From positions 7,068,001 through 7,132,000 of the forward strand of contig NZ_VIVR01000001.1 in NCBI RefSeq assembly GCF_007828955.1: a stretch of 64,000 nt of DNA, in the 5' to 3' direction. The notes below the pieces were generated by a model. That model did no database searches, was not told the origin of the DNA, and saw nothing but the letters and a program-made list of their open reading frames with translations. The number at the start of each line of letters is the position of its first letter. The stretch's first letter is position 1. The DNA comes from Kitasatospora atroaurantiaca (lineage in GTDB: Bacteria > Actinomycetota > Actinomycetes > Streptomycetales > Streptomycetaceae). A program made the translations under genes and the position numbers. Below are positions 1 through 25,701 of the stretch, one piece after another.

Positions 1-828
1 CTCGGCCTCTCCGAGCGACGGCTCGGTGACGCTCTCCAGGTGCGCCCGCGGGAGGAATACGTCATCTCCTCGAAGGTGGGCAGGCTGCTCGTCCCCAACG
101 AGCGGCCGTGCGGGGCCGACACCGAGGGCTTCGCCGTCCGCGAGGACCTGCGCCGCCAGTGGGACTTCAGCCGTGACGGAGTGCACCGCTCCATCGAGGA
201 GACGCTGGGGCGCACGGGCCTGGACCGCCTGGACGTCGTCTACCTGCACGACCCCGACGACCACTGGCAGCAGGCCGCCGAGGAGGCCATACCCGCGCTG
301 GCCGACCTGCGCGACCAGGGTGTCATCGGCGCCATCGGCGCCGGCATGAACCAGTCGGCCATGCTCACCCGCTTCCTGCGCGAGACCGCCGCCGACGTGG
401 TGATGACCGCCGGGCGCTACACCCTCCTCGACCAGTCCGCGTTGGACGATGTCCTTCCCGCGGCGCAGGAGCTGGGCAAGAGCGTCGTCGCGGTCGGCGT
501 GTTCAACTCCGGACTGCTCTCCCAGGACAGGCCCGCGTCCGGCATGAAGTACGACTACCAGGACGCCTCGACGGACCTGGTCCAGCAGGCGCAGGCCATC
601 GCCGACGTCTGTGAGCAGCACGGCACCACCCTGCCCGCCGCCGCCATCGCCTTCCCGTTCACCCACCCCGCCGTCGTCAACGTCACCCTGGGCATGCGGA
701 CCGCCGACCAGGTCGAACGCAACGCGGAGCTCCACCGCCGGCCCGTCCCCGCAGGCCTCTGGGACCATCTGCGCGCCGAAGGCCTGATCAGAGCGGACGT
801 GCCGGGTTCGGGCTCCGACGCCGACTGA
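1..828 (+). CDS. Aldo/keto reductase, L-fucose dehydrogenase-like (5' end cut by window)
   Basis: The reading frame is open from the first base, so the N-terminus lies outside the window; a GTG at 40 is internal. The visible part starts in the segment LGLSERRLG just after the catalytic Tyr of this family and keeps the Lys region (SSKVGRL) and YLHDPDDH. It is closely similar along its length to the aldo/keto reductase at 18246-19259 and less so to the one at 2574-3563. The family (D-threo-aldose or L-fucose dehydrogenases) oxidises C1 of L-fucose-type sugars to the lactone with NAD(P). It is followed 47 nt later by the FAH hydrolase, so it probably heads or continues the fucose operon. Sugar specificity is inferred from context. 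Confidence 0.85.
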   Translation, partial: LGLSERRLGDALQVRPREEYVISSKVGRLLVPNERPCGADTEGFAVREDLRRQWDFSRDGVHRSIEETLGRTGLDRLDVVYLHDPDDHWQQAAEEAIPALADLRDQGVIGAIGAGMNQSAMLTRFLRETAADVVMTAGRYTLLDQSALDDVLPAAQELGKSVVAVGVFNSGLLSQDRPASGMKYDYQDASTDLVQQAQAIADVCEQHGTTLPAAAIAFPFTHPAVVNVTLGMRTADQVERNAELHRRPVPAGLWDHLRAEGLIRADVPGSGSDAD

Positions 829-875
829 CAGCTCCCGGCCAGGGAATTCATCCGATGTGTTGATAGGAGTTCGAC

Positions 876-1727
876 ATGAAGTTGCTTCGGATCGGGGCAC
901 CGGGCGAGGAAGTCCCGGCAGTCCGCGGCGAGGACGGACGCGTGTTCGCCCTCTCGGGGCTGACCGGGGACGTCGACGGGGCTTTCCTCGCCTCGGACGG
1001 GGTCCAGCGGGCCCGGGCGGCGCTGGCTGCCGGTGAGCTGCCCGAGGTCGACGCCACCGGTCTGCGGGTCGGTGCGCCGGTGGCGCGGCCGGGCAAGGTG
1101 GTGTGCGTCGGTCTCAACTACCGTGACCACGCGGAGGAGACCGGGGCGGCCATCCCCGCCCGGCCGGTGGTCTTCATGAAGGACCCGGCGACCGTGGTCG
1201 GCCCGTACGACGAGGTGCTGATCCCGCGCGGCTCGGTGAAGACCGACTGGGAGGTGGAACTCGCCGTCGTGATCGGCCGTCAGGCCCGCTACCTCGCCGA
1301 CCCCACCGACGCGGTGGACTGCATCGCGGGCTACACGATCAGCAACGACGTCTCCGAGCGGGAGTTCCAGCTCGAGTACTCCGCGCAGTGGGACCTCGGC
1401 AAGTCCTGCGAGACCTTCAACCCGATGGGCCCCTGGCTGGTCACCGCGGACGAGGTGGGCGACCCGCAGGCGCTCGGCCTGCGCCTGGCCGTCAACGGCG
1501 AGCCTCGCCAGGACGGCAACACGAAGAACATGATCTTCGACATCGCCCACCTGGTCTGGTACCTGAGCCAGTACATGGTGCTCAACCCCGGCGACGTGAT
1601 CAACACCGGCACCCCCGCCGGCGTGGCCCTCGGTCTGCCCGGCACCCCCTACCTGCGTGAGGGCGACGCCGTCGAGCTGTCCATCGACGGCCTGGGCACC
1701 CAGCGCCAGACGTTCCGCAACGCGTGA
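876..1727 (+). CDS. FAH-family hydrolase, probable 2,4-diketo-3-deoxy-L-fuconate hydrolase
   Basis: 283 aa, ATG start with AGGAG 10 nt upstream. The fumarylacetoacetate hydrolase fold is clear: GLNYRDHAEE near residue 80, the metal-ligand cluster DWEVELA (Glu126, Glu128) with Asp158 in SNDVSERE, and a C-terminal GDVINTGTPAGV loop. Length is normal for the family. FAH relatives cleave a C-C bond in a 2,4-diketo acid; in the L-fucose pathway this gives pyruvate and L-lactate. Position between fucose dehydrogenases and LutABC supports that role. Ureidoglycolate lyase or acylpyruvase activity is the main alternative, disfavoured by context. Confidence 0.85.
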   Translation: MKLLRIGAPGEEVPAVRGEDGRVFALSGLTGDVDGAFLASDGVQRARAALAAGELPEVDATGLRVGAPVARPGKVVCVGLNYRDHAEETGAAIPARPVVFMKDPATVVGPYDEVLIPRGSVKTDWEVELAVVIGRQARYLADPTDAVDCIAGYTISNDVSEREFQLEYSAQWDLGKSCETFNPMGPWLVTADEVGDPQALGLRLAVNGEPRQDGNTKNMIFDIAHLVWYLSQYMVLNPGDVINTGTPAGVALGLPGTPYLREGDAVELSIDGLGTQRQTFRNA

Positions 1728-1803
1728 AAGGCACCCCGTTGTCCGCAACCACCGCGCTCCAGGCGCCAACCGACACCCGCCGGTACGACCGGAGGGCGGA
1801 CGC

Positions 1804-2571
1804 ATGACGGCCACCGATTTTGCGGGACTGACGGCGGTGGTTACCGGCGGCGCCTCCGGGATAGGCCTCGCCACCGCGTCCCTGCTCGCGGAGCGCGGCG
1901 CCCGGGTGGCCGTTCTGGATCTCGACCCCGCATCGTTGAAGGAGCCGCTGGTCGGCTTCACCGCCGATGTCAGCGACGACGCCTCGGTCCGTGCCGCGGT
2001 CGACGCGGCGGCCGACGCCTTCGGCGGAATCGACGTCGTGGTCAACTGCGCGGGCATCAGCGCGATCGGCACGGTGGAGGACAACCCGGACGAGCAGTGG
2101 GGCCGGGTCCTCGACGTCAACCTGGTCGGGGTCGTCCGGACCATCCGGGCCGCCCTGCCGTACCTGCGCCGGTCCGAGAACGCCTCGGTGGTCAACATCG
2201 GCTCCATCGTCGTCACCACCGGCCTGCCGCAGCGCGCGCTGTACGCGGCCGGCAAGGGCGCCGTGATGTCGCTGACGCTGTCGATGGCCGCCGACCACGT
2301 CCGCGAGGGCATCCGGTTCAACTGCGTCAACCCCGGCACCGTCGACACCCCGTGGGTCGGCCGGCTGCTCGACGCCGCCGCCGACCCGGCCGCCGAGCGC
2401 GCCGCGCTGAACGCCCGGCAGCCCACCGGCCGCATGGTCACCGCCGAGGAGGTGGCCGCCGCCATCGCCTACCTGGCCTCCCCCGCGGCCGCCTCGGTCA
2501 CCGGCACCGCCCTCGCGGTCGACGGCGGCATGGCGGGCCTGCGCCTGCGACCCGCCGAGACGAAGGCCTGA
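1804..2571 (+). CDS. SDR oxidoreductase, probable 2-keto-3-deoxy-L-fuconate dehydrogenase
   Basis: 255 aa. The ATG at 1804 is preceded by a GGAGGGCGG ribosome site; an in-frame extension upstream to 1657 has no family similarity and overlaps the FAH gene. Classical short-chain dehydrogenase: cofactor motif GGASGIG (residues 15-21), NCAG (81-84), catalytic Ser134, Tyr147 and Lys151, and a C-terminal VDGG. In the fucose route the SDR oxidises 2-keto-3-deoxy-L-fuconate to the 2,4-diketo acid that the neighbouring FAH enzyme cleaves. The stop is 2 nt from the next start, so it is translated as part of the operon. Confidence 0.87.
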   Translation: MTATDFAGLTAVVTGGASGIGLATASLLAERGARVAVLDLDPASLKEPLVGFTADVSDDASVRAAVDAAADAFGGIDVVVNCAGISAIGTVEDNPDEQWGRVLDVNLVGVVRTIRAALPYLRRSENASVVNIGSIVVTTGLPQRALYAAGKGAVMSLTLSMAADHVREGIRFNCVNPGTVDTPWVGRLLDAAADPAAERAALNARQPTGRMVTAEEVAAAIAYLASPAAASVTGTALAVDGGMAGLRLRPAETKA

Positions 2572-2573
2572 CA

Positions 2574-3563
2574 ATGCACCAGAACACCCTCGGGCGGGGG
2601 CCGGTGCGGGTCAGCGCACTCGCCTTCGGCGCGGCGGCCATCGGCAACCTGTTCACCCAGGTCACCGACACCGAGGCCGAGCAGGCCGTCACCGCCGCCT
2701 GGGAGGCCGGTGTCCGCTACTTCGACACCGCCCCGCACTACGGCCTCGGCCTGTCCGAACGCCGGCTCGGCACCGTGCTGCGCGGCCTGCCCCGCGAGGA
2801 GTACACGATCTCCACCAAGGTCGGCCGGCTGCTGGAGCCGTCCGACCTCGGCGGCGACGACCTCGCCAACGGCTTCGCCGTCCCAGCCACCCACCGCCGG
2901 CGCTGGGACTTCAGCGCCGAGGGCGTGCGCCGCTCCATCGAGGACAGCCTCGACCGGCTCGGCCTGGACCGGATCGACATCGCCTACCTGCACGACCCCG
3001 ACGACCATCTGGACCAGGCCATCGGCGAGGCCTACCCGGAGCTGGCGCGGATGCGCGCCGAGGGACTGGTCGGCGCGATCGGCGTCGGCATGAACCAGGC
3101 AGAGGCGCCCGCGCGCTTCGTCCGCGAGACCGACCTCGACGTGGTCCTGCTGGCCGGCCGCTACACGCTGCTCGACCAGCGTGGCCTCGTCGAGCTACTG
3201 CCGCTCGCCGAGCGGCACGGCGTGTCCGTGGTGGTCGGCGGGGCCTTCAACTCCGGCCTGCTGGCCGACCCGAAACCCGGCGCCACCTTCGACTACGCCG
3301 CAGCACCCGACGAACTGCTCAGCCGAGCACTGGAGTTGAAGGAGGTCTGCGAGCGCCACGGGGTGCCGCTGCGGGCCGCCGCGCTGCAGTTCCCGTTCGG
3401 CCACCCGGCCGTCGCGAGCGTGCTGGTCGGCACCCGGACCGCGGGCGAGGTGCGGGACGCCGCGGCGATGCTCCACCACCCCGTCCCCGACCTCCTGTGG
3501 GCGGAGCTCAAGGAGCGCGGGCTGCTGCCCGAGGACGTACCGACCCCCAGGGAGGCGGGCTGA
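2574..3563 (+). CDS. Aldo/keto reductase, L-fucose dehydrogenase-like
   Basis: 329 aa. The start at 2574 lies 2 nt after the SDR stop. The family N-terminus (VSALAFGAAAIGNL) begins near residue 13, which excludes a longer upstream start. Catalytic Asp51, Tyr56 (in DTAPHYGLGLSERR) and Lys82 are visible, followed by YLHDPDDH. It belongs to the same subfamily as the enzymes at 1-828 and 18246-19259 but is the most divergent of the three, so it may act on a different anomer or 6-deoxy sugar. The stop codon overlaps the lutA start (TGATG), which implies translational coupling. Confidence 0.88.
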   Translation: MHQNTLGRGPVRVSALAFGAAAIGNLFTQVTDTEAEQAVTAAWEAGVRYFDTAPHYGLGLSERRLGTVLRGLPREEYTISTKVGRLLEPSDLGGDDLANGFAVPATHRRRWDFSAEGVRRSIEDSLDRLGLDRIDIAYLHDPDDHLDQAIGEAYPELARMRAEGLVGAIGVGMNQAEAPARFVRETDLDVVLLAGRYTLLDQRGLVELLPLAERHGVSVVVGGAFNSGLLADPKPGATFDYAAAPDELLSRALELKEVCERHGVPLRAAALQFPFGHPAVASVLVGTRTAGEVRDAAAMLHHPVPDLLWAELKERGLLPEDVPTPREAG

Positions 3564-4303
3564 TGCGGATCGCCCTGTTCATCACCTGCTTCAACGACAC
3601 CATGTTCCCCGGCACCGGCCGGGCCGTGGTCGACGTCCTCGAACGGCTCGGCCACACGGTCGACTTCCCGCAGGAGCAGACCTGCTGCGGGCAGATGCAC
3701 TTCAACACCGGCTACCGGCCCGACGCCGTCCCGCTGGTGGACCGCTTCGCCCGGGTCTTCGGCGAGTACGACGCGGTGGTCACCCCGTCGGCGTCCTGCG
3801 CCGGCATGGTGCGCGAGAACCACCCGGTGCTGGCCGAGGAGCACAGCAGCGCCCGGCTCCAGGCCGATGTGGCGCAGCTGGTGCCCCGGGTCCACGAGTT
3901 CACCGAGTTCCTGGTCGACGTGCTGGGGGTGAGCGACGTCGGCGCCGCCTTCCCGCACCGGGTCGCCTACCACCCGACCTGCCACTCGCTGCGCGGCCTG
4001 CGGCTCGGCGACCGTCCGCAGCGGCTGCTGAAGGCAGTCAAGGACCTCGACCTGGTCGACATCCCGGCGGCAGACTCCTGCTGCGGCTTCGGCGGGACGT
4101 TCGCCGTCAAGAACGCCGACACCTCCACCGCGATGCTCGCCGACAAGATGCGCAGCGTGCTCGACAGCGGCGCCGACGTGCTCTGCGCCGCCGACAACTC
4201 CTGCCTGCTGCACATCGGCGGCGGCCTCTCCCGGCAGGGCAGCGCCGTCCGCACCATGCATCTGGCCGAGATCCTGGCCGCGACCGAGGGAGGACCGCGA
4301 TGA
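3563..4303 (+). CDS. lutA: LutA/LldE-type (Fe-S)-binding subunit of L-lactate oxidation
   Basis: 246 aa; the start overlaps the previous stop. Two CCG-type cysteine-rich modules are visible: QTCCGQMHFNTGY (Cys41-Cys42) and, near the C-terminus, DSCCGFGG, with HPTCHS between them. This is the LutA/LldE architecture. LutABC oxidises L-lactate to pyruvate. Here the substrate would be supplied internally, because the FAH enzyme three genes upstream should release L-lactate from fucose. The gene overlaps lutB by 4 nt (ATGA). Confidence 0.92.
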   Translation: MRIALFITCFNDTMFPGTGRAVVDVLERLGHTVDFPQEQTCCGQMHFNTGYRPDAVPLVDRFARVFGEYDAVVTPSASCAGMVRENHPVLAEEHSSARLQADVAQLVPRVHEFTEFLVDVLGVSDVGAAFPHRVAYHPTCHSLRGLRLGDRPQRLLKAVKDLDLVDIPAADSCCGFGGTFAVKNADTSTAMLADKMRSVLDSGADVLCAADNSCLLHIGGGLSRQGSAVRTMHLAEILAATEGGPR

Positions 4304-5748
4304 CCGGACAAGGTGTGGTCTGGCTCGGCTCCCCGCCGTTCCCGAAGGCCGCCCGCGAGGCGCTGAAGAACGACCAGCTGCGGGCCAACCTGAAGCGCGC
4401 CACAACCACCATCCGGGACAAGCGCCTCGCGGTCGCCTCGGAACTGGACGACTGGGAGGCGCTGCGCGAGTCCGCCGCCGCGATCAAGCGCCGCACCGCG
4501 CGCCACCTCGACCGGTACCTGCTCCAGTTGGAGGAGTCGGTCACCGTGGCCGGCGGCACCGTGCACTGGGCCGCCGACGCGGCCGAGGCCAACCGCATCG
4601 TCACCGAGCTGGTCCGCGCCACCGGCGAACGCGAGGTGGTCAAGATCAAGTCGATGGCCACCCAGGAGATCGGCCTCAACGAACACCTGGCCGAGGCCGG
4701 GATCACCGCTTACGAGACCGACCTCGCCGAGCTGATCGTCCAGCTCGGCGACGACCGGCCCTCGCACATCCTGGTCCCCGCCATCCACAAGAACCGCGGC
4801 GAGATCCGCGACCTGTTCACCGCCGAGATGGGCAGCTGGGGCCGCCCCGCCCCCGACGGGCTGACCGACGAGCCCGCCGCCCTGGCCGAAGCCGCCCGGC
4901 AGCACCTGCGGGAGAAGTTCCTGCGTGCCAAGGTCGCCGTCTCGGGCGCCAACTTCGCCTGCGCAGAGACGGGGACGGTCGTGGTGGTCGAATCGGAGGG
5001 GAACGGCCGGATGTGCCTGACCCTGCCGGAGACCCTGATCACCGTGATGGGCATCGAGAAGGTCGTCCCCACCTGGTCCGACCTGGAGGTGTTCCTGCAG
5101 CTGCTGCCGCGCTCCTCCACCGGTGAGCGGATGAACCCCTACACCTCCACCTGGACCGGCACCACGGAGGGTGACGGACCGTCGGCGTTCCACCTGGTGC
5201 TGCTGGACAACGGCCGCACCGACACCCTCGCCGACACCGTCGGCCGCCAGGCCCTCGCCTGCATCCGCTGCTCGGCGTGCCTCAACGTCTGCCCGGTGTA
5301 CGAGCGCACCGGCGGCCACGCCTACGGCTCGGTCTACCCCGGTCCGATCGGCGCCGTCCTCACCCCGCAACTGGTCGGCGTCGAGACGGCCGCCTCGCTG
5401 CCGTTCGCCTCCACGCTGTGCGGGGCCTGCTACGACGCCTGCCCAGTGAAGATCAACATCCCCGAGGTGCTCACCCACCTGCGGGCCGAGGTCGTCGAGG
5501 CCAAGGGCCGCTCCGCCGAGGCGCTGGCGATGAAGGCGGCCGGTGTCGTGCTCGACTCCCCGCGCCTGCTGGGCGCCGCGCAGAAGGCCGCCGCGCTCGG
5601 CGGGCGGGTGCTGTCCCGCGACGGGCGGATCGGCCGACTGCCCGGACCGCTGCACGGCTGGTCCGACAGCCGCGACACGCCTGCACCGGCGACCGAGTCC
5701 TTCCGTACCTGGTGGCGCAAGAACAAGGAGAACGGGGAGAGCCGATGA
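4300..5748 (+). CDS. lutB: LutB/LldF-type iron-sulfur protein of L-lactate oxidation
   Basis: 482 aa with a LUD domain in the N-terminal two thirds (for example VKIKSMATQEIGLNEHL and GANFACAETGT), then a ferredoxin-like segment with CIRCSACLNVCPVYE and a second cluster LCGACYDACPVKINIP. This is the usual LutB order. It probably carries electrons from the LutABC complex, a cytosolic lactate oxidase alternative to LldD. Start ATG overlaps the lutA stop and the stop overlaps the lutC start, as in a stoichiometric complex. Confidence 0.93.
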   Translation: MTGQGVVWLGSPPFPKAAREALKNDQLRANLKRATTTIRDKRLAVASELDDWEALRESAAAIKRRTARHLDRYLLQLEESVTVAGGTVHWAADAAEANRIVTELVRATGEREVVKIKSMATQEIGLNEHLAEAGITAYETDLAELIVQLGDDRPSHILVPAIHKNRGEIRDLFTAEMGSWGRPAPDGLTDEPAALAEAARQHLREKFLRAKVAVSGANFACAETGTVVVVESEGNGRMCLTLPETLITVMGIEKVVPTWSDLEVFLQLLPRSSTGERMNPYTSTWTGTTEGDGPSAFHLVLLDNGRTDTLADTVGRQALACIRCSACLNVCPVYERTGGHAYGSVYPGPIGAVLTPQLVGVETAASLPFASTLCGACYDACPVKINIPEVLTHLRAEVVEAKGRSAEALAMKAAGVVLDSPRLLGAAQKAAALGGRVLSRDGRIGRLPGPLHGWSDSRDTPAPATESFRTWWRKNKENGESR

Positions 5749-6401
5749 GCAGCCGCGAGACCGTCCTCGCCCGGATTCGGGCCGCCCTCGCCGACGTCCC
5801 CGCCGAGGAGGCACCGCAGGACGTCCCCGTGCCGCGCGACTACCGGCGCAGCCACGTCCGGCCCGGCGAGGACACCGTTACCCTGTTCGCCGAACGCGTC
5901 GCCGACTACCGCGCGAACGTCACCCGCACCGACCGGGCCGGCCTGACCGACGCCATCGCCGCCGCCCTCACCCGGCGCGAGGCCCGACACCTCGCGGTGC
6001 CCGCCGGCTTCCCGACCGAGCTGCTGCCGACCGGCGGCTGGGAGTGGCACCCGGAACCGCTGGACGTCCCCGCGCTGGACGGTCTGGACGGCGCGATCAC
6101 GCTGGCCGCCGCCGGCATCGCCGTCACCGGCACCATCGTGCTCGACACCGGCGCCGGTCAGGGCCGACGGGCCCTCACCCTGGTACCCGACTACCACCTG
6201 TGCATCGTGGACGCCGAGCAGATCGCCGACGACGTCCCGGACGCCCTCGCCCGCCTCGACCCCGCCCGGCCCCTCACCTTCGTCTCCGGCCCGTCCGCGA
6301 CCAGCGACATCGAACTCGACCGGGTGGAAGGAGTGCACGGCCCCCGTACCCTGGACGTCATCGTCGTCGAGTCCGGCCTCGATGCTGCAAGAACCGCATG
6401 A
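5745..6401 (+). CDS. lutC: LutC/LldG-type subunit (LUD domain)
   Basis: 218 aa; ATG at 5745 overlaps the lutB stop. It is a single LUD domain, with the conserved DGAITLAAAGIAVTGTIVLD segment and a C-terminal FVSGPSATSDIELDRVEGVHGP typical of LutC. No cofactor motif is present, as expected. It completes the three-gene lactate module. Its last codons lie just before the FadR-type regulator, which suggests that lut and fucose genes are controlled together. Confidence 0.92.
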   Translation: MSSRETVLARIRAALADVPAEEAPQDVPVPRDYRRSHVRPGEDTVTLFAERVADYRANVTRTDRAGLTDAIAAALTRREARHLAVPAGFPTELLPTGGWEWHPEPLDVPALDGLDGAITLAAAGIAVTGTIVLDTGAGQGRRALTLVPDYHLCIVDAEQIADDVPDALARLDPARPLTFVSGPSATSDIELDRVEGVHGPRTLDVIVVESGLDAARTA

Positions 6402-6415
6402 CCGGGAGGGAAGCC

Positions 6416-7123
6416 GTGCCAGTCACCGACGAAGCGATCGAGAAGATCAAGGCCATGATCGTGAGCGGCGAACTGCGGCCCGGTGAAAGGCTCCCGAAGG
6501 AGGCCGACCTCGCAGAGCGGCTCGGCCTCTCGCGCAACTCCCTGCGGGAGGCCGTCAAGGCGCTCTCGGTCATCCGGGTCCTCGACGTCCGCCAGGGTGA
6601 CGGCACCTACGTGACCAGCCTGGAACCCGACGTCCTGCTGGACACGCTGGGGTTCATCGTCGACTTCCACCGGGACGACAAGGTCCTGGAGTTCCTGGAG
6701 GTCCGCCGCGTCCTGGAGCCCGCCGCCACCGCGATGGCCGCCGGCCGGATGTCCGACGAGGAGGTCGCCGCCCTCGAGGAACTGCTCTCGGGTCTGAGCG
6801 GGGACGCGTCGCTCGAGCAACTGATCGACAACGACCTGGAGTTCCACCGCAGGATCGCGGCCGGGTCCGGCAACACCGTGCTGTCCTCGCTCATCGACGG
6901 CCTGTACGGCCCGACCCGGCGGGCCCGGGTCTGGCGCGGACTGACCGAGGAGGGTGCGGTGGAGCGCACCCGCCAGCAGCACCGCGCCATCCTCGACGCC
7001 ATCGCCGGCCGCCGCCCGGACCTGGCCCACGCCTGGGCCACCGTGCACATCGCCGGCGTCGAACAGTGGCTCCGCGGCACCCTCGGCGAGGCAGACTCGG
7101 CCCTCGGACTGTCCGGGCAGTGA
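6416..7123 (+). CDS. FadR-subfamily GntR regulator (LldR/LutR-like)
   Basis: 235 aa. A GTG at 6416 is chosen over the ATG at 6398: GGGAGGG lies 5 nt before the GTG, and the paralogue at 17548-18255 starts at the same homologous residue. An N-terminal winged helix (ERLPKEADLAERLGLSRNSL to GDGTYVTS, residues about 20-70) is followed by an all-helical FCD domain with the metal-binding pattern DLEFHRR and QQHRAI. Being the last gene of the fucose-lactate operon, it most likely senses L-lactate or a fucose intermediate and controls the operon. The ligand is inference. Confidence 0.88.
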   Translation: MPVTDEAIEKIKAMIVSGELRPGERLPKEADLAERLGLSRNSLREAVKALSVIRVLDVRQGDGTYVTSLEPDVLLDTLGFIVDFHRDDKVLEFLEVRRVLEPAATAMAAGRMSDEEVAALEELLSGLSGDASLEQLIDNDLEFHRRIAAGSGNTVLSSLIDGLYGPTRRARVWRGLTEEGAVERTRQQHRAILDAIAGRRPDLAHAWATVHIAGVEQWLRGTLGEADSALGLSGQ

Positions 7124-7247
7124 CGCGTCCGCTCCGGGTCGCCGACCGAACCGGCGGCCCCGGCACCCACCGCTTTCGGCGGACGGTCGCGCGGGGCCGC
7201 TGTGCGTTTCAGGACGCCCTGGAAGGGTCAGCTCGTGGGAACGGGCG

Positions 7248-17547: not shown

Positions 17548-18255
17548 TCACGCCCACGGGAGGGCTTCTCCCGAATGCAAGTGCTCGCTCAGCCACAGCG
17601 CGGTGTTGCTGACGTGCATCAACGCGGCGGCCTGGCTGAGGGAGGCGTCGCGGATCGACAGCGCTCGGAAGATCGCCTCGTGCTCGGCGATGGTCCGGTC
17701 CGAGGCCTGGGCGTCGACCAGACCGCGCCAGGTGCGGGCGCGCAGCGTGCGCCCGGAGATGCCCTCCAGGAGGGTGAGCAGGGTCTCGTTGCCCGTGGCC
17801 GCGATGACGGCACGGTGGAACGCGGCGTCGTGGGCGTTGAGCAGTTCCACGTCGTCATGCGCTTCGCGCATGGCCTCCAGGTGCCGCTCTACCTCGGCCA
17901 GCTGCTCGTCGGAGATCCGGGTTGCGGCCAGAGACGTGGCGACCGGTTCCAGGAGTCGCCGTACCTCGATGAGATCCTGCACCGCGGCGGAATCGCCCTG
18001 CAGCAGCTCCACCGCGCCGCCGAGCCCCTCGAGGAGCAGGCTCGGCTGGAGGCTGGTCACGTAGGTGCCGTCGCCCCGTCGGACCTCCAGGATCCGGGCG
18101 ACGGCCAACGCCTTCACGGCCTCCCGGGCGAGATTGCGGGAGAGGCCGAGCTGGGCGGCCAGCTCCGGCTCCGGGGGGAGCTTCGAGCCCGGTGGCAGCG
18201 CTCCGCTGCGGATCAGCTCCCGGATCTGCGTGATCGCCTTGTCCGTCAGAGACAC
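17548..18255 (-). CDS. FadR-subfamily GntR regulator, paralogue of the lut-linked regulator
   Basis: 235 aa, GTG start with GGAAGGAG 6 nt upstream. Winged helix SKLPPEPELAAQLGLSRNLA to GDGTYVTSLQP, then an FCD ligand domain with DAAFHRA and EHEAIFRA. It matches the regulator at 6416-7123 in length and in most of the DNA-binding region, so both may read related operators. Its start overlaps the aldo/keto reductase stop by 10 nt, placing it at the end of the second fucose operon. The ligand is unknown; a fucose-derived acid is the simplest guess. Confidence 0.88.
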   Translation of the reverse strand: MSLTDKAITQIRELIRSGALPPGSKLPPEPELAAQLGLSRNLAREAVKALAVARILEVRRGDGTYVTSLQPSLLLEGLGGAVELLQGDSAAVQDLIEVRRLLEPVATSLAATRISDEQLAEVERHLEAMREAHDDVELLNAHDAAFHRAVIAATGNETLLTLLEGISGRTLRARTWRGLVDAQASDRTIAEHEAIFRALSIRDASLSQAAALMHVSNTALWLSEHLHSGEALPWA

Positions 18256-19259
18256 CGCGCACTCCTTCCGGTCCTGTTCGTGACGGGCACGTCCGACCTG
18301 ATGAGTTCCCGGGCGCGGAGATCCTCCCAGAGAGCCTCGGGGATGTGCTGACGGTGGAGATCCACGTTCCGTCCGACCTGTTCCGCCGTCCGCATGCCGA
18401 GGGTGACGTTGATGATACTGGGATGGCTGTACGGGAACGCGACCGCTGCAGCGGGCAACGTCGTTCCGTGCGCCGCGCAGACCTCGGCGATCGCCAGGGC
18501 GCGGGCGACGACGGCCGGGGGAGCTTCCCGGTAGTCGTACGTCATGCCCTGCGCCGGCCGGTCGCGGGAGAGCAGTCCCGAGTTGAACACACCGACGGCC
18601 ACCACGCTCTTGCCGAGTGCCCGCGCGGCGGGCAGGACGTCGTCGAGGGCGGACTGGTCGAGGAGGGTGTAGCGACCCGCGAGCATCACCACGTCGGCCG
18701 GGGTCTCGCGCAGGAAGCGGGCGAGCATGGCCGACTGGTTCATTCCTGCGCCGATCGCGCCGACCACTCCCTGATCACGCAGCTCCGCCAGGGCCGGCAT
18801 GGCCTCGTCGGCGGCCTGCCTCCAGTGGTCGTCGGGGTCGTGCAGGTAGACGACGTCCAGGCGGTCCAGGCCAGTGCGTTCCAAGGTCGCCTCGATGGAG
18901 CGGAGCACTCCGTCACGGCTGAAGTCCCACTGCCTGCGAAGGTCGTCCGGCACCACGAAACCTTCGCTGTCGAGCCCGTGCGGCCGCTCGTTGGGGACGA
19001 GCAGGCGGCCGACCTTGGAGGAGACGACGTACGCGTCGCGCGGACGGTCCCGCAGGACGGCTCCCAGACGTCGCTCGGACAGGCCGAGCCCGTAGTGCGG
19101 CGCCGTGTCGAAGTACCGGATGCCGGACTCCCAGGCCGCCTCGATCGCGGCCTGTGCGTCGTGAGGAGGGGTGACGCGGTAGAGGTTGCCTATCACGGAG
19201 GCCCCGAAGCCCAGTTCGGTGAGCTCGACGGAAGTGTTCATGATCTTCCGGCGGGCCAT
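18246..19259 (-). CDS. Aldo/keto reductase, L-fucose dehydrogenase-like
   Basis: 337 aa from the ATG at 19259. A TTG at 19274, with a perfect AGGAGG 7 nt before it, and a later ATG at 19241 are alternatives. I keep 19259 because the family N-terminus (TELGFGASVIGNL) then has the usual spacing. Catalytic Asp and Tyr (DTAPHYGLGLSERR) and Lys (SSKVGRLL) are present. It is nearly the twin of the truncated enzyme at 1-828, so the pathway has at least two similar first-step dehydrogenases, each in an operon with a FadR-type regulator. Confidence 0.87.
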   Translation of the reverse strand: MARRKIMNTSVELTELGFGASVIGNLYRVTPPHDAQAAIEAAWESGIRYFDTAPHYGLGLSERRLGAVLRDRPRDAYVVSSKVGRLLVPNERPHGLDSEGFVVPDDLRRQWDFSRDGVLRSIEATLERTGLDRLDVVYLHDPDDHWRQAADEAMPALAELRDQGVVGAIGAGMNQSAMLARFLRETPADVVMLAGRYTLLDQSALDDVLPAARALGKSVVAVGVFNSGLLSRDRPAQGMTYDYREAPPAVVARALAIAEVCAAHGTTLPAAAVAFPYSHPSIINVTLGMRTAEQVGRNVDLHRQHIPEALWEDLRARELIRSDVPVTNRTGRSARCL

Positions 19260-19382
19260 GGTCCGTTGTGTCAACTGCGTTCCTCCTGGTGTGCGGTTCG
19301 GTGCGACGGCCGAGGGACCCGGCGCGGGGCATGCGTCAGCTCGGTGGCGGAGGCGACGCGGCACCGACGGCCGGATCGGTGG

Positions 19383-20145
19383 TCATCGGCCGAGCCAGCC
19401 GCCGTCGACGGGTAGGACGGTGCCGTGGATGTAGGCGGCGGCGTCGGAGGCGAGGAAGACGGTGGCGCCGGCGAGGTCGTCGGCGCGGCCCCAGCGTCCG
19501 GCCGGGATCCGTTCCGGGATCGCCTTGCTGCGCGCCGGATCGGCCTGCAGCGCCTGGGTGTTGTCGGTGGCGATGTAGCCGGGCGCGATGGCGTTGACGT
19601 TGACGCCGTGCCCGGCCCACTCGTTGGCCAGGGCCTTGGTCAGCCCGGCGACGCCGTGCTTGGCCGCGGTGTAGCCGGGCACCGTGATGCCGCCCTGGAA
19701 GCTGAGCAGCGACGCGGTGAAGATGATCTTGCCGTGGCCGCGGGCCAGCATGGCCGCGCCGACCGCGCGGGACAGTGCGAAACTGGGCGCTCAGGTTGAC
19801 CTGGAGTACCTGGTCCCAGTCGTCGTCGGGGTGTTGGGCGGCGGGTGCGCGGCGGATGGTGCCGGCGTTGTTGACCAGGATGTCCACCGGCCGTTCGCGG
19901 CCGGCGAGGTCCGTGCCCAGGGCGCGGACGGCGTGCGGGTCGGCGAAGTCGGTGCGGATCGCCTCGAAGGTGCGGCCCGCGGCGAGCACGTCCTGCTCGA
20001 CGTCGCTGCCGGTCTCCTCCAGGTTGGCGCTGACGCCGATCACGTCCGCGCCGGCCTCGGCCAGGGCGCGGGCCATGGCCCGGCCGATGCCGCGCCGGGC
20101 TCCGGTGACGACGGCGAGCCGGCCGGTCAGGTCGAAGGCGTTCAC
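19383..20145 (-). pseudogene. KduD-like SDR with a one-base frameshift
   Basis: The GTG start at 20145 overlaps the stop of the dehydrogenase upstream (GTGA). The first part (residues 1 to about 120) has VVTGARRGIGRA and ILVNNAGT; the second part (19383-19751) has [10 protein letters not shown], Tyr and Lys in [20 protein letters not shown], and VDGGWLGR. They are in different frames. Removing one base in the AAA run at 19780-19782 joins VNLSAQF to [16 protein letters not shown] and gives an intact protein of 253 aa. The family includes 2-keto-3-deoxy-acid 5-dehydrogenases (KduD). It is either a real pseudogene or a sequencing error. Confidence 0.85.
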
Positions 20146-21185
20146 GCGCTCGCTCCCTCGGTGTCGCTGGTGCAGTCCACGAGGATCTTCATCACGTCGC
20201 CGCCGCCCTCCAGGGCCTCGAACGCCGCCTGGGCCTCGGTGAGCGGCACCACCTTGCTGATCAGCCGCTCGGCCGGGATGGTGCCGTCGGCGACCAGCTC
20301 CACCGCCCGCTCGAAGTCCGTCCGGTCGTACAGGCGGGCGCCGACCAGGGTGAGTTCGCGCCAGAAGAAGCGGTGCAGGTTGATCTCGCGGGGCCTCGGG
20401 TGGATCGCCACCAGGCACAGCCGGCCGCGCACGCCCAGCACCTCGACGGCGGTGTCGACGCCGGCCGCCGCGCCGGAGACCTCGAACGCGACGTCCGCGC
20501 CCGCGCCGCCGGTCCACTCCCACGCCGCCTCGACGACGTCCTCGGCCGCCGGGTCCCAGGTGACAAGGCCCGACTCCTCGGCGAGCTTGCGCCGGTGGGC
20601 GCTCAGCTCGACCACCCTCACCTCGGCCCCGGCCGCCCGGGCGACCAGCGCGATCAGGATGCCGACCGGTCCGCCGCCCACCACGACGACCCGCTCGCCC
20701 GCCCGCACCCCGGCGCGTGCGACGTCGTGCACGGCCACCGCGGTGGGCTCCACCAGCGCGGCCTTGTCCAGCGCCAGCGAGTCCGGCAGGCGGATCAGCG
20801 TGTCGGCGGGGACGGTCCAGCGCTGCTGCATCGCGCCCGGCGAGTCGATGCCGATGAAGTTCAGGTTCTGGCAGATGTGCGAGTTGCCGGCCCGGCAGGC
20901 CGGGCAGGTGCCGTCCCAGGCCAGCGGCATCACCGTCACCGCGTCCCCGGGCCGCCAACCCTCCACCCCGGCACCGACCTTCACCACCCGCCCGGCCATC
21001 TCATGGCCCAGCACCGCCGGCGCGGCCACCCGGGCATCCATGTCGCCGTGGAAGATGTGCAGATCGGTGCCGCAGATCCCCACATACGCGGGAGCCAGCA
21101 GCACCTCGCCCGGACCGGGCTCGGACGGCTCCACCGGAGCCGTGTCCAACGTCCGGGCAGCCGTGTAACGGACAGCAAGCGTCAT
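20142..21185 (-). CDS. Zinc-dependent medium-chain dehydrogenase (polyol or sugar-acid type)
   Basis: 347 aa; ATG overlaps the fucose mutarotase stop. Catalytic zinc region GICGTDLHIFHG, GHEMAG, and the cofactor loop VVVGGGPVGIL. The structural-zinc segment reads DGTCPACRAGNSHIC, so Asp occupies the place of the first Cys of the usual four. It resembles threonine or sorbitol dehydrogenase-like enzymes. No step of the standard fucose pathway needs it, so it may oxidise another sugar or sugar acid that enters by the same importer. The exact substrate is not evident. Confidence 0.82.
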   Translation of the reverse strand: MTLAVRYTAARTLDTAPVEPSEPGPGEVLLAPAYVGICGTDLHIFHGDMDARVAAPAVLGHEMAGRVVKVGAGVEGWRPGDAVTVMPLAWDGTCPACRAGNSHICQNLNFIGIDSPGAMQQRWTVPADTLIRLPDSLALDKAALVEPTAVAVHDVARAGVRAGERVVVVGGGPVGILIALVARAAGAEVRVVELSAHRRKLAEESGLVTWDPAAEDVVEAAWEWTGGAGADVAFEVSGAAAGVDTAVEVLGVRGRLCLVAIHPRPREINLHRFFWRELTLVGARLYDRTDFERAVELVADGTIPAERLISKVVPLTEAQAAFEALEGGGDVMKILVDCTSDTEGASA

Positions 21186-21619
21186 CGTGATTCCAGAGTC
21201 TCTTCAGCGCGGACGCCGATGGTCAGCAGCAGGTTGGCGTAGGTGCGGATGTCGGCCGTGACGACGGCGAGGGCCAGGTCGGGTGACCGGGCGGCGTCGT
21301 AGAACTCGTAACGGCCGAGCGTCCCGACGGGGACGGGCGCCAGCATCGAGCGGTACTCGGCGATGGCCGGCGGCTCCGGCTCGCCCTCGGGCGGCACCAT
21401 CACGTGCGCCGCCTCGACGGGCAGAGCCCGCAGCAGGACGTCGAGCACGGTGGTGACATCCAGCAGACCCGGCGCCAGGTTGAGATGGACGGTCCTGGTT
21501 CGCGGGCCGGTGGCCGTGCTCGCCGGATAGTGGCCGTCGGCGAGCAGGACCCGGGCTCCGTGCCCGGCGCCCGCCAGGGCTTCGAGGATGCCCGGGTGCA
21601 GCAGTTCGGTCAGCAGCAC
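21182..21619 (-). CDS. fucU: L-fucose mutarotase (FucU/RbsD family)
   Basis: 145 aa, GTG start with GAGGAAGG 6 nt upstream. The N-terminus HPGILEALAGAGHGARVLLADGH carries His20 and Asp28 at the catalytic positions of the RbsD/FucU family, and a C-terminal Tyr-Asn pair (TYANLLL) closes the sugar site. It interconverts fucose anomers, supplying the form used by the fucose dehydrogenases. It sits between the dehydratase gene and the zinc dehydrogenase, overlapping the latter by 4 nt. Confidence 0.9.
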   Translation of the reverse strand: MLLTELLHPGILEALAGAGHGARVLLADGHYPASTATGPRTRTVHLNLAPGLLDVTTVLDVLLRALPVEAAHVMVPPEGEPEPPAIAEYRSMLAPVPVGTLGRYEFYDAARSPDLALAVVTADIRTYANLLLTIGVRAEETLESR

Positions 21620-21646
21620 GAGGTGCCTTCCTCGAGGATCCGGGCG

Positions 21647-22966
21647 TCAGACACGGGCGGTCCAGACCGGGCCGTCGGGGTAGGTGTACTCCTTGAGCGA
21701 GGCCGGGTGCATCTGTGCGCTCAGCCCGGGCAGGGTCGGTGCCAGGTAGTGGCCGTCGGCGATGCGGACGGGGTCGACGAAGTGCTCGTGCAGGTGGTCG
21801 ACGTACTCGATGACCCGGTCCTCGGTGGTGCCGGAGACGGCGACGTAGTCGAACATCGACAGGTGCTGGACCATCTCGCACAGCCCCACACCGCCGGCGT
21901 GCGGGCACACGGGGACGCCGAACTTCGCGGCGAGCAGCAGGATCGCGAGGTTCTCGTTGACACCGCCGACCCGTGCGGAGTCGATCTGCACGATGTCCAC
22001 CGCGCCGGCCTGCAGCAGCTGCTTGAAGACGACCCGGTTTGCGATGTGCTCGCCGGTGGCGACCTTGATGGGGCCGAGCGCCTTGCGGACGGCGGCGTGG
22101 CCGAGGATGTCGTCGGGGGAGGTGGGCTCCTCGATCCAGTACGGGTCGTAGGGGGCGAGGGTACGCATCCAGTCGATCGCGGGTGCGACGTCCCACCTCT
22201 GGTTGGCGTCGACGGCGATGCGGACGTCCGGGCCGACCGCCTCGCGGGCGACCCGCATGCGCCGTACGTCGTCCTCCAGGTCCGCGCCGACCTTCAGCTT
22301 GATCTGGGTGAAGCCGTCGGCGACGGCCTCGCGGGCCAGGCGGGCCAGCTTCTCGTCGGAGTAGCCGAGCCAGCCGGGCGTGGTGGTGTAGGCGGGGTAG
22401 CCGCGCTCCAGAAGACGGGCGATGCGTTCCTGGCGGCCCGGTTCGGCACGGCGCAGGATGTCCAGCGCCTCCTCGGGGGTGAGCGCGTCGCTGAGCCAGC
22501 GGAAGTCGACCTGGGCGACCAGCTCCTCGGGGGACATCTCGCCGAGGAACTGCCAGACGGGCCGGCCCGCGCGCTTGGCGGCGAGGTCCCAGGCGGCGTT
22601 GACGACGGCTCCGGTGGCCATGTGGATGGCACCCTTCTCCGGGCCCAGCCAGCGCAGTTGCGGATCGTGCACGAGCGAGCGGGAGAAGGACCCCAGGTCG
22701 CCGCAGACGTCCTCGACGGACCGGCCGACCACGTACGGGGCGAGGGCCGCGATGGCCGCGGCCTGCACGTCGTTGCCGCGTCCGGTGGTGAAGGCGAGCG
22801 CGTGGCCCTCCAGTCCGTCGCCGGCGTCGGTGCGCAGCACCACGTAGGCGGCGGAGTAGTCGGGCTCGGGGTTCATGGCGTCCGAGCCGTCGAGGTGTTC
22901 GGAGGTGGGGAACCGCACGTCCAGGACGTCCAGGGCGGTGATGCGGGCGGATGCGGGCGAGGACAT
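21647..22966 (-). CDS. fucD: L-fuconate dehydratase (enolase superfamily)
   Basis: 439 aa; ATG at 22966 after AGGAG. All active-site elements of FucD are seen: IKLKV with Lys223 and Lys225, Asp253 in VDANQRWD, Glu279 or Glu280 in WIEEP, Glu306 in ATGEH, and Asp329 and His356 (CPHAGGVGL). The spacing is the same as in characterised FucD. It removes water from L-fuconate to give 2-keto-3-deoxy-L-fuconate, the substrate of the SDR at 1804-2571. Its presence is the strongest evidence that these operons act on L-fucose. Confidence 0.94.
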
Positions 22967-23058
22967 GCGGCAACTCCTGTGAGGAACACGGGGGGCGATC
23001 CCCTCGTGGCGTGACGTGAACGCGGCGGAGGACGGGCGGCGGTCGGCAGCCGCCCGGG

Positions 23059-24099
23059 TCACTCCTGGACCTTGCCCCCGGTGATGCGGGAGATGGCGAG
23101 CGCGATCAGGATGATCAGGCCGTTGAGAGCACCGATCCACTGGGCGGGGACGCCCGCCAGCGTGAGCACGTTCTGGATCATGAAGAGCAGGAGGATGCCG
23201 CAGAACGCGCCGAACATGGTCCCCCTGCCGCCGTTCAGGCTGATCCCGCCGATGACGGCGGCGGCGAAGACGGTGAAGATGTAGCCGTTGCCCTGCGCGG
23301 AGGCGACCGAGGCCAGGCGCCCGGACAGCATCAGGCCGGCGAGGGCGGCGAGCACGCTGCCCGTCACGATGACGATCCACAGCACCCGGTCGGTACGGAT
23401 GCCGCCCGCCTTCGCCGCGTCCACGTTGCCACCGATGGCGTACAGCGAGCGGCCGAAGCTGGTCCAGCCGAGCACCATGATGGCGATGGCGAACAGGGCC
23501 AGGCAGATCCAGATGGAGGCCGGCATGCCGAACCACTGGGCGGTGCCGAGGTAGAGCATCGAGTCCGGCAGTTGGAAGAAGGTCTGGCCGCCGGAGATGC
23601 CGGTGAGGATGCCGCGCAGCACGATCAGCATGCCGAGGGTGACGATGAAGCCGTTGAGGCCGAAGCGGATGATCAGCAGTGAGTTGATCACGCCGACGAG
23701 CGCGCCCACGGCCAGGGTGACAGGGATTGCCCAGGCGCCGGAGAGCAGACCGAGTCCGTGTCCGGCGCCGACCGGGACGACCAGCCAGGCCGCGACACCG
23801 GGCGCCAGGCCCATCGTGGACTCCAGCGACAGGTCCATCTTCTTGACGATCAGGATCATCGTCTGGGCGAGGACCAGCAGGGCCATCTCGGACATGGTCT
23901 GCAGGACGTTGATGAGGTTGTCGGCCTGCAGGAAGACGGGGTTGACGATCTGGCCGACGATCGCGATGACGACGATCGCGGGGACGAGGGCGAGGTCGCG
24001 CAGCCGGGCCAGGGGGATCCGGCCGCCGAGCAGCGCGGTGCGCGGGGGCCTGGGTTCACCGGCCCGGGCGGCTGTGTCCGCGAGGACGGTTTCAGGCAT
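23059..24099 (-). CDS. RbsC-type sugar ABC transporter permease
   Basis: 346 aa, about ten hydrophobic segments, with the family signatures [14 protein letters not shown] and [15 protein letters not shown]. It belongs to the ribose/xylose-type monosaccharide permeases. It overlaps the ATPase gene by 8 nt and precedes the fuconate dehydratase by about 90 nt. The likely substrate is L-fucose, judged from the operon. Confidence 0.93.
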
Positions 24100-25657
24100 T
24101 GAGGTCCACTCCTTCCATCGCGGCCACGAGTTCGTGGTCGTGCCAGCCGCGGGCTGTCTCCGAGGTCACCCGGCCCTGGAACATCACCAGGACCCGGTCG
24201 CACATGCGCAGGTCGTCGAGTTCGTCGGAGGCGATGAGCACTCCGGTGCCGGACTCCGCGGTCTCCTCGACCTTGCCGAGGAGGAACTCCTTGGAGCGCA
24301 CGTCCACACCGGCGGTCGGGTTGATCAGCACCAGCAGACGCGGACCGTCCGCCAGAGCGCGGGCCATGACGACCTTCTGCTGGTTGCCGCCCGAGAGCGC
24401 GGAGACGGGCAGCTCGGGTCCCGGCGTCTTGATCGCCAGCTTGTCGATCATGTTGTCGGCGAGCCGGTCCCGTCGGTCACGGCTGAGGAAGCCGTTCTTG
24501 CCGAGCCGGTGAGGAACGGACAGCGTGGCGTTGTCCGCGATCGACATGTCGGGCACGAAACCCTGATGGTGCCGGTCCTGCGGGACGAACCCGGCGCCCG
24601 CGGCGAGCGCGGCGGGCACGCTGCCCGGCCGGGGCCGCCGCCCGGCGATCTCCACCTCGCCCGCCTGGGCCGCCCGCAGCCCCACGACGGTCTCGGCGAC
24701 CTCGGTGCGACCGCTGCCGGCGGCGCCCGCGAGTCCGACGATCTCCCCGGAGCCCACCTGGAAGGAGACGTCATGGTAAGAGCCGTCACTGCCCAGCGCC
24801 TGCACGGACAGCGCAGGCGGTGCGGTGCGGTCGAGGCTGCTCGACCGCACCTGCAGCCGGTCGACCGCAGCCTCACCGGTCATCGCGGCGACCAGCTTGG
24901 CGCGGGGGAGCTCCGCGACCGGCGCGGTCACGATGTGCGCCGCGTCGCGGAACACCGTCACCATGTCGCAGATGTCGTAGACCTCCTGGAGATGGTGGCT
25001 GATGAACAGGAAGGTCACGCCCTGGCGCTGCAGCTCGCGGATGCGCTCGAAGAGCCGGCTGATGGCCGCACCGTCGAGCTGGGCGGTCGGCTCGTCCAGG
25101 ATGATGAACCGCGCCCCGAAGGACAGCGCCCGGGCGATCTCCACGAACTGCCGCTGCTCCACGCTCAGTTCGCCGGCCGCTGTCTGCGGGTCGACGTCCA
25201 CCGACCACGTCGACAGGAGCTCCTGCGCCCGCCGGCGCACACCCTGCCAGCTGATGAGCCGGCTGCGGCCGTGGTCGTGCCGGTTGAGGAAGAGGTTCTC
25301 GGCGACGGTCAGGGTGGGGATGATCGTCGACTTCTGGTAGACGCAGGCCACGCGCTGTCGCCAGGCGTCGCGGTCCGCGAGGCGCGGTGCGGGGCCGCCG
25401 CCGAAAGTGACTGTTCCCTCGTCGGGGGCCTGCAGGCCGGTGAGGACCGACACCAGGGTCGACTTGCCCGCTCCGTTGCGGCCGACGAGCGCGTGGGTCT
25501 CGCCGGGCCTGATGGTGATCCGGGCGCCGTTGAGGGCCACCGTCGGACCGAATCGTTTGACTATGCCCGTCGCCTCGACGACGGGCGGGGCTGCGGGGAC
25601 CTGCCCGTCGTCCGCCGGGGCGGGCGCGGGGGTGACTGCTCGCTCCCCGTCGCTCAT
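24092..25657 (-). CDS. RbsA-type sugar ABC transporter ATPase, two cassettes
   Basis: 521 aa from the ATG at 25657 (AAGGTGG 5 nt before it); a longer frame to 25723 overlaps the binding-protein gene. The first cassette has Walker A GRNGAGKST and LSVEQRQFVEIARAL; the second has the degenerate GAAGSGRTE loop and an intact LSGGNQQKVVMARAL. This tandem structure is typical of RbsA/MglA/XylG. It energises the permease encoded next to it. Confidence 0.94.
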   Translation of the reverse strand: MSDGERAVTPAPAPADDGQVPAAPPVVEATGIVKRFGPTVALNGARITIRPGETHALVGRNGAGKSTLVSVLTGLQAPDEGTVTFGGGPAPRLADRDAWRQRVACVYQKSTIIPTLTVAENLFLNRHDHGRSRLISWQGVRRRAQELLSTWSVDVDPQTAAGELSVEQRQFVEIARALSFGARFIILDEPTAQLDGAAISRLFERIRELQRQGVTFLFISHHLQEVYDICDMVTVFRDAAHIVTAPVAELPRAKLVAAMTGEAAVDRLQVRSSSLDRTAPPALSVQALGSDGSYHDVSFQVGSGEIVGLAGAAGSGRTEVAETVVGLRAAQAGEVEIAGRRPRPGSVPAALAAGAGFVPQDRHHQGFVPDMSIADNATLSVPHRLGKNGFLSRDRRDRLADNMIDKLAIKTPGPELPVSALSGGNQQKVVMARALADGPRLLVLINPTAGVDVRSKEFLLGKVEETAESGTGVLIASDELDDLRMCDRVLVMFQGRVTSETARGWHDHELVAAMEGVDLNA

Positions 25658-25701
25658 CTCAACCACCTTGTGCTCGTGAGCCGTTGGTTCCGTAGGAAGA
25701 A

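Follow-up and report, generated by a model that had tools for sequence, protein, structure and literature searches.

A run of eight genes on the (+) strand occupies positions 1-7123 of the window, that is, of the whole stretch of 64,000 nucleotides (nt) analysed here (positions 7068001-7132000 of the single-contig 7.87-Mb genome of Kitasatospora atroaurantiaca, G000). The run comprises an aldo-keto reductase (AKR1), a FAH-family hydrolase, a short-chain dehydrogenase (SDR), a second aldo-keto reductase (AKR2), LutA, LutB, LutC and a FadR-type GntR regulator (Table 1). The run quite likely forms a module that breaks down a 6-deoxy-L-hexose. L-Fucose set free from plant cell walls is the most probable substrate, and two sets of genes would act in series. 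The SDR would oxidise L-2-keto-3-deoxyfuconate (L-KDF) at C4, and the FAH enzyme would hydrolyse the diketo acid to pyruvate and L-lactate. LutABC would then oxidise the L-lactate to a second pyruvate, the electrons being passed on, probably to the respiratory chain. The terminal FadR-type regulator probably controls the module, perhaps via CATC[CG]GATG sites.

The module exists twice: a complete copy is encoded on the opposite strand 40 kb further left, and the second is that in the window. The window copy seems to have been duplicated into a different sugar-acid cluster and to have then lost its dehydratase and mutarotase genes. Compared with two relatives, it also seems to have lost a promoter-like stretch before FAH; it is probably read from upstream and would depend on a dehydratase made elsewhere. 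The evidence consists of gene order, conservation, paralogy, a gene remnant, an identical stretch and a shared motif, from which we infer every enzyme activity, the substrate, the pairing of regulator and site, transcription and the order of events. The preliminary description of this DNA had placed L-fucose and L-lactate oxidation in one operon; with the corrections given below, this is most likely the function of a real, conserved module.

Table 1. Features of the window discussed in the text
Feature	Window position	Strand	Basis and predicted role
AKR1, aldo-keto reductase, 3' part	1..828	+	Pfam Aldo_ket_red 104.9 bits; candidate L-fucose/L-galactose 1-dehydrogenase
FAH-family hydrolase	876..1727	+	Pfam FAA_hydrolase; candidate L-2,4-diketo-3-deoxyfuconate hydrolase (pyruvate + L-lactate)
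SDR	1804..2571	+	Pfam short-chain dehydrogenase; candidate L-2-keto-3-deoxyfuconate 4-dehydrogenase
AKR2	2574..3563	+	Pfam Aldo_ket_red; nearest solved structures are L-galactose dehydrogenases
LutA	3563..4303	+	Pfam CCG, two stretches
LutB	4300..5748	+	Pfam LUD + Fer4 + LutB_C; TIGR00273 above cut-off
LutC	5745..6401	+	Pfam LUD
FadR-type GntR regulator, GTG start	6416..7123	+	Pfam GntR + FCD
Operator-like palindrome CATCCGATG	849..857	.	Ends 18 nt before FAH start codon
L-fuconate dehydratase remnant, 22-codon frame	1739..1807	+	Alignment with intact paralogous module
Third, separate cluster: GntR, AKR, SDR, zinc alcohol dehydrogenase, FucU, dehydratase, permease, ATPase, binding protein	17548..26763	-	Context
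Fuconate-dehydratase paralogue of third cluster	21647..22966	-	Could supply missing step in trans
Alpha-L-fucosidase with ricin-type lectin domain	27149..29332	+	Pfam Alpha_L_fucos; possible L-fucose source

Organization of the gene run

Gene order and spacing were confirmed as first described, and Pfam backs the class of every gene. AKR1 and FAH are separated by 47 nt, FAH and SDR by 76 nt, and SDR and AKR2 by 2 nt. AKR2 overlaps LutA by 1 nt, LutA and LutB as well as LutB and LutC overlap by 4 nt, and a gap of 14 nt precedes the regulator gene. Each of the eight reading frames is open, and neighbouring ones are closely coupled. The order of enzymes was also as claimed, but both of the "dehydrogenases" flanking the FAH-SDR pair are aldo-keto reductases (Pfam Aldo_ket_red). 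AKR1 starts 171 nt left of the first base of the window (genome 7067830), and the eight genes are the latter part of a longer cluster, whose beginning is about 10 kb to the left of the window.

LutA (CCG), LutB (LUD and 4Fe-4S) and LutC (LUD) are adjacent and in order, which is the layout of a LutABC operon. LutB passes the NCBIfam model TIGR00273 (456.5 bits, cut-off 444.8); LutC had no NCBIfam match. Since LutABC directly follows the sugar genes and is conserved there, its proposed part as consumer of the lactate is in keeping with the gene arrangement.

The second module and the two gaps

The paralogous module (copy 2) lies on the opposite strand (genome 7024379-7032265) and is composed of FAH, dehydratase, SDR, AKR2, LutA, LutB, LutC, mutarotase and GntR genes, with an ABC transporter of the sugar type running divergently beside it. 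The dehydratase of copy 2 aligns with the L-fuconate dehydratase 1yey at 684 bits over residues 6-438 of 444. Alignment with this intact module shows that the 76-nt gap of the window copy still contains the beginning of the dehydratase gene and fragments of its end, all in frame, and the remnant overlaps the SDR start by ATGA, as the intact gene does in copy 2. FAH and SDR are direct neighbours in eight other loci (L numbers denote loci of relatives, G numbers genomes). Two of these, L116 and L117, hold a longer remnant at this place, and none was seen by eye in L082, L104, L107, L114, L121 and L130. An ordinary spacer was thus rejected as an explanation of the gap, since sequence from either end of the dehydratase gene is recognizable in it and L116 and L117 have the longer counterparts.

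The 22-codon remnant is all that the window copy has of an L-fuconate dehydratase, the intact gene being in the paralogous module, so this transcript by itself cannot carry the pathway. Of the compact single-transcript pathway claimed at first, the side-by-side arrangement of FAH, SDR and Lut holds, but the dehydratase step that it needs is gone from the run and encoded elsewhere. A dehydratase is encoded elsewhere in all six genomes checked (G000, G045, G102, G027, G099 and G030), and four homologues (E 1e-60 or better) were found in that of K. atroaurantiaca. Two further fuconate-dehydratase homologues lie outside the window, at genome 7202228 and 7399762.

The longest exact run common to both modules is 1,689 nt (window 1811-3499, SDR-AKR2). 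Beyond window 3790 the modules are 76-94% identical in 200-nt steps, except for the step with the extra mutarotase gene of copy 2, and FAH is 88% identical. The identical stretch is probably the product of recent gene conversion. In L116 and L117, which are window-type relatives, SDR and AKR2 are 86-92% identical to both copies of our genome, compared with 77-82% in eight loci of the other type. The remaining copy-2 genes separate the two groups far less (for example, LutB 86-89% versus 80-91%, LutA 83-84% versus 79-84%). The pattern points to copying of window-type sequence onto the left-hand module. In a phylogenetic tree the window LutB clusters with L116 and L117, away from the copy-2 LutB, which probably dates the duplication to before these species diverged.

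The 47-nt gap before FAH contains an operator-like palindrome. CATCNGATG occurs four times in an 80-kb stretch, including at window 849-857. It is present in 30 of 38 intergenic regions that separate a divergent binding-protein gene from FAH or dehydratase (length 249-1081 nt; some genomes are represented twice), whereas 1.1% of 2,000 random 300-mers contain it. CATC[CG]GATG was found at most 150 nt before 32 of 60 FAH genes and before 8 of 988 other genes; for 12 of the 60 FAH genes the site follows TATGGT. The span between the matched AKR1 and FAH frames is 199 nt in L116, 136 nt in L117, 56 nt in L121 and 50 nt in the window. The window module may have lost its own promoter and thereby have become joined to the upstream genes. 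By eye, the longer spans hold a promoter-like part, and L116 also a second CATCGGATG, altered in L117; the window seems to be joined at repeated ATTCATC, the aligner having put the gap slightly elsewhere. AKR1 of L117 (G045) was matched in two overlapping pieces, possibly due to a frameshift or an assembly error.

Given these losses, the window copy may be decaying and perhaps weakly expressed, with the pathway carried by the left-hand module; we regard this as somewhat unlikely. The dehydratase remnant and the missing mutarotase and promoter-like stretch fit decay, and a simple promoter and terminator scan of window 700-7400 found none, a result that says little for actinomycetes. However, the eight frames are intact, and the remnant is common to two more genomes, in which the other module genes were each matched whole (L116) or with AKR1 in two pieces (L117); this sharing indicates that the loss is old and tolerated. 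Copy 2 also carries the window-type SDR-AKR2 sequence, which argues further against decay.

Conservation, substrate and competing explanations

Conservation was surveyed in a sample of 121 genomes of the family. Some genomes have two records under different names (L099/L046 and L133/L035, for instance, have identical LutB). LutB was found in 111 genomes (E 1e-100 or better) and FAH in at least 109 (E 1e-80 or better). At 77% identity or more there were 29 LutB matches: two of our own genome, 26 that were fetched and one left out (G114, partial, 84% over 213 residues). At least one of FAH, dehydratase, SDR and AKR2 lies within 6.5 kb on the same strand in 25 of the 26 fetched loci (21 genomes), L127 having none, and the full set FAH, SDR, AKR2, LutA, LutB and LutC is found on one strand in 18 of them (16 genomes). 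With our own genome included, 27 of 28 loci have fucose genes beside LutB. These loci come from at least 22 of the 121 genomes, a lower bound since weaker LutB matches were sampled. None of 20 sampled loci with stand-alone LutB (66-76% identity) had fucose genes beside it. A private oddity of one genome was rejected on the strength of these 22 genomes. In the tree of 56 LutB rows (54 different), a 100/99 branch splits 34 of 35 linked rows from 19 of 21 unlinked rows.

With regard to the substrate, the best solved relative of FAH is 8gsr, an L-2,4-diketo-3-deoxyrhamnonate hydrolase (250 bits), and the SDR matches 8y4j, 8xwk and 8y11 at about 138 bits, at ranks 5-7, with 4dqx first at 172 bits. 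According to PMC11199699, 8y4j and 8y11 (= 8y46/8y4b) are L-KDF 4-dehydrogenase entries, the nonphosphorylating L-fucose route 3 ends in pyruvate and L-lactate, and the L-rhamnose route joins it at the same diketo acid. FAH and Lut therefore cannot discriminate between the two sugars: the claimed pathway to pyruvate and L-lactate agrees with the nearest relatives of FAH and SDR, but FAH and Lut fit rhamnose equally. L-fucose is favoured because of the fuconate-type dehydratase in copy 2, the L-galactose dehydrogenases nearest to AKR2, the upstream lactonase (genome 7063434), whose best solved relative is 4dlf, and the alpha-L-fucosidase in the window. We take 4dlf to be an L-fucono-1,5-lactonase.

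That the window copy serves L-rhamnose instead appears quite unlikely. The shared diketo acid would allow it (PMC11199699), both the best NCBIfam model and the best solved relative of FAH are named for the rhamnonate route, and the mutarotase gene upstream is of the RhaM type, Pfam rhaM matching both mutarotases. The intact paralogue of the remnant is nevertheless L-fuconate-type, AKR2 resembles L-galactose dehydrogenases, the best NCBIfam model of the lactonase is L-fucono-1,5-lactonase, although below cut-off, and a fucosidase gene is nearby. RhaM-type mutarotases can serve L-fucose too. No rhamnulokinase or RhaEW was found among the eight window genes and seven scanned upstream genes, no genome-wide search having been made. 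A further reading, which we find very doubtful, makes the fucose-linked LutABC a dedicated branch oxidising whichever 2-hydroxy acid FAH frees, L-lactate from L-fucose or, where this SDR and FAH also accept the L-galactose-derived acid, L-glycerate. The window operon, in which an L-galactose-like arm adjoins the FAH-Lut arm, would then be a two-sugar operon with a shared acid oxidase. Independently of that reading, the KduD, kinase and KDPG-aldolase genes upstream in the same cluster fit a non-deoxy sugar acid; this arm may take an L-galactonate-like acid to 2-keto-3-deoxygluconate (KDG) and on to 2-keto-3-deoxy-6-phosphogluconate (KDPG).

It is also unlikely that Lut is a general lactate oxidiser placed there by chance, its link to fucose being without function. 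The only two LutB of our genome are each in one of the two fucose modules, and a further LutB (E 1e-100, read by eye) is absent from 11 of the 22 genomes that have a linked one, so the linked set may also handle external lactate. The other 11 keep another LutB, that of G090 (L114) itself adjoining fucose genes. Moreover, a general job would not need the constant place behind AKR2 seen in the families of arrangement of 24 of the 26 fetched loci. LutA comes directly after AKR2 in linked loci, or after SDR where AKR2 is missing, and the linked LutB form a largely separate branch.

Several results weigh against a fucose module with its own lactate oxidation. Linked LutB are no clean clade: the tree needs four label changes, and L114 is linked yet among stand-alone LutB, L127 is of the fucose type without fucose genes, and L157 is on a long branch. 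Among the best 80 of 592 named dehydratase loci, most are without linked Lut and seven carry LutB; FAH is beside the dehydratase in 27, and LutB is present in seven of these 27. This suggests that the lactate genes are an accessory, present in certain clades, of a more widespread fucose module. The frequency of CATC[CG]GATG before FAH is about the same whether Lut is present (15 of 27) or absent (17 of 33), so the site goes with the fucose module and not with the lactate link. Of five FMN_dh matches in our genome one spans nearly the whole family; it is under the NCBIfam cut-offs for L-lactate dehydrogenase (273/376), LldD (245/550) and L-lactate oxidase (208/645), but may still act on lactate. 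Assignments of single enzymes are affected as well. FAH falls below the cut-off of its best NCBIfam model, 2,4-didehydro-3-deoxy-L-rhamnonate hydrolase (319 versus 500), and so do the lactonase (195 versus 400) and the KduD-like SDR of the upstream cluster (330.8 versus 338.85). Four other solved SDRs, the top one an unnamed oxidoreductase, outrank the L-KDF 4-dehydrogenase entries.

The seven dehydratase loci with LutB are five of Streptomycetaceae (L016, L017, L035, L046 and L063), and two carriers are outside the family, in Actinoplanes (L031) and Catenulispora (L069). Among the other 20 FAH-dehydratase loci, L018 and L025 end within 6 kb, and L019 has LutA and LutC matches but none for LutB, and it contains 233 N. 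L021-L024, L026-L030 and similar Streptomyces loci contain all or part of a dehydratase-SDR-AKR2-mutarotase-lactonase set, with FAH or Lut not matched nearby.

Surroundings, known systems and significance

To the left of the window, in the same direction, there are genes for a RhaM-type mutarotase, the amidohydrolase/lactonase, a zinc alcohol dehydrogenase, the KduD-like SDR, a KDPG-aldolase-type protein and a PfkB-type kinase, followed by AKR1. Further left, a binding protein and two permeases were recognized by eye. A 666-aa protein (genome 7061049-7063049, L011:3049-5049), also matched in L104, L116, L117, L121 and L130, gave no hit in Pfam, NCBIfam or the PDB sequences under the thresholds applied. 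The clusters are surrounded by genes for the degradation of plant cell walls, namely glycoside hydrolases (GH) GH31, GH9 and GH10 + GH62, two AbfB-type arabinofuranosidases, a GH141 insertion-domain protein and fucosidases. The GH141 insertion domain and lectin domains are in a secreted-looking protein adjoining the module (window 8449-11139); GH141 includes fucosidase members. A second fucosidase frame of 215 aa is at genome 7042403.

Neither FAH nor Lut was found within the third cluster (window 17548-26763), the SDR of which was called merely as a 122-aa frame. Its zinc alcohol dehydrogenase and SDR stretches (genome 7087368-7089205, window 19368-21205) are 95% identical to those at genome 7064313-7066149, in inverted orientation. 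In similar Streptomyces loci (L075, L076, L080, L087, L088 and L093), genes for KDPG aldolase and KDG kinase are also present, which would be compatible with growth on L-galactose.

Among described systems, the nonphosphorylating L-fucose route 3 (FucM, FucA, FucB, FucC, FucF, FucG; PMC11199699) corresponds to the module in its mutarotase and dehydratase and probably in its lactonase, SDR and FAH enzymes, and it ends in pyruvate and L-lactate, as predicted here. The present module differs in including LutABC, in aldo-keto reductases as probable sugar dehydrogenases and in a window copy without dehydratase. Lactate oxidation within a 6-deoxyhexose regulon has a parallel in L-rhamnose use: lldD and lldEFG (= lutABC) belong to RhaR regulons of certain Actinomycetales and Rhodobacterales, where the route probably ends in pyruvate (Rodionova et al. 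2013, PMC3870299). Those regulons are phosphorylating, with RhaEW and RhaR, while here a diketo-acid hydrolase would make the lactate and a FadR-type regulator is encoded. In the verrucomicrobium SH-KS-3, LutABC is in an operon with a rhamnulokinase gene (PMC11596606), again joining lutABC with 6-deoxyhexose genes, but in a phosphorylating route with a metabolosome and in another phylum. LutABC/LldEFG lactate operons of the LUD family (PMC3924224) have the same three genes and domains; unlike these, the LutB described here is from a largely separate branch and embedded in a sugar module. Endozoicomonas has a FadR-type gene beside lutABC, with lut and rhamnose genes in separate clusters (PMC6955870). 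The available text of a Campylobacter fucose paper contained no link between lut and fucose.

The suggestion that the arrangement may be undescribed in actinomycetes was too strong as a principle, because lldD/lldEFG had been reported in L-rhamnose regulons of Actinomycetales in 2013 (PMC3870299). Co-product oxidation is thus known in principle from L-rhamnose use, and the surprise is limited accordingly (PMC3870299, PMC11596606). The version with fuconate dehydratase, FAH hydrolase and FadR-type gene appears new: no report of it was found in a literature search that had most subscription journals outside its range and in which matching papers were mostly screened at title level.

The module is a sequence-level case, kept over several actinomycete genera, of a by-product that would be consumed by enzymes encoded in the same module. 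With a defined internal lactate source, the role of LutABC becomes testable. For annotation, lutABC in such clusters should be regarded as part of sugar breakdown. The two related copies on one chromosome, one with a remnant and a homogenised stretch, show how such a module may be copied, trimmed and joined to another.

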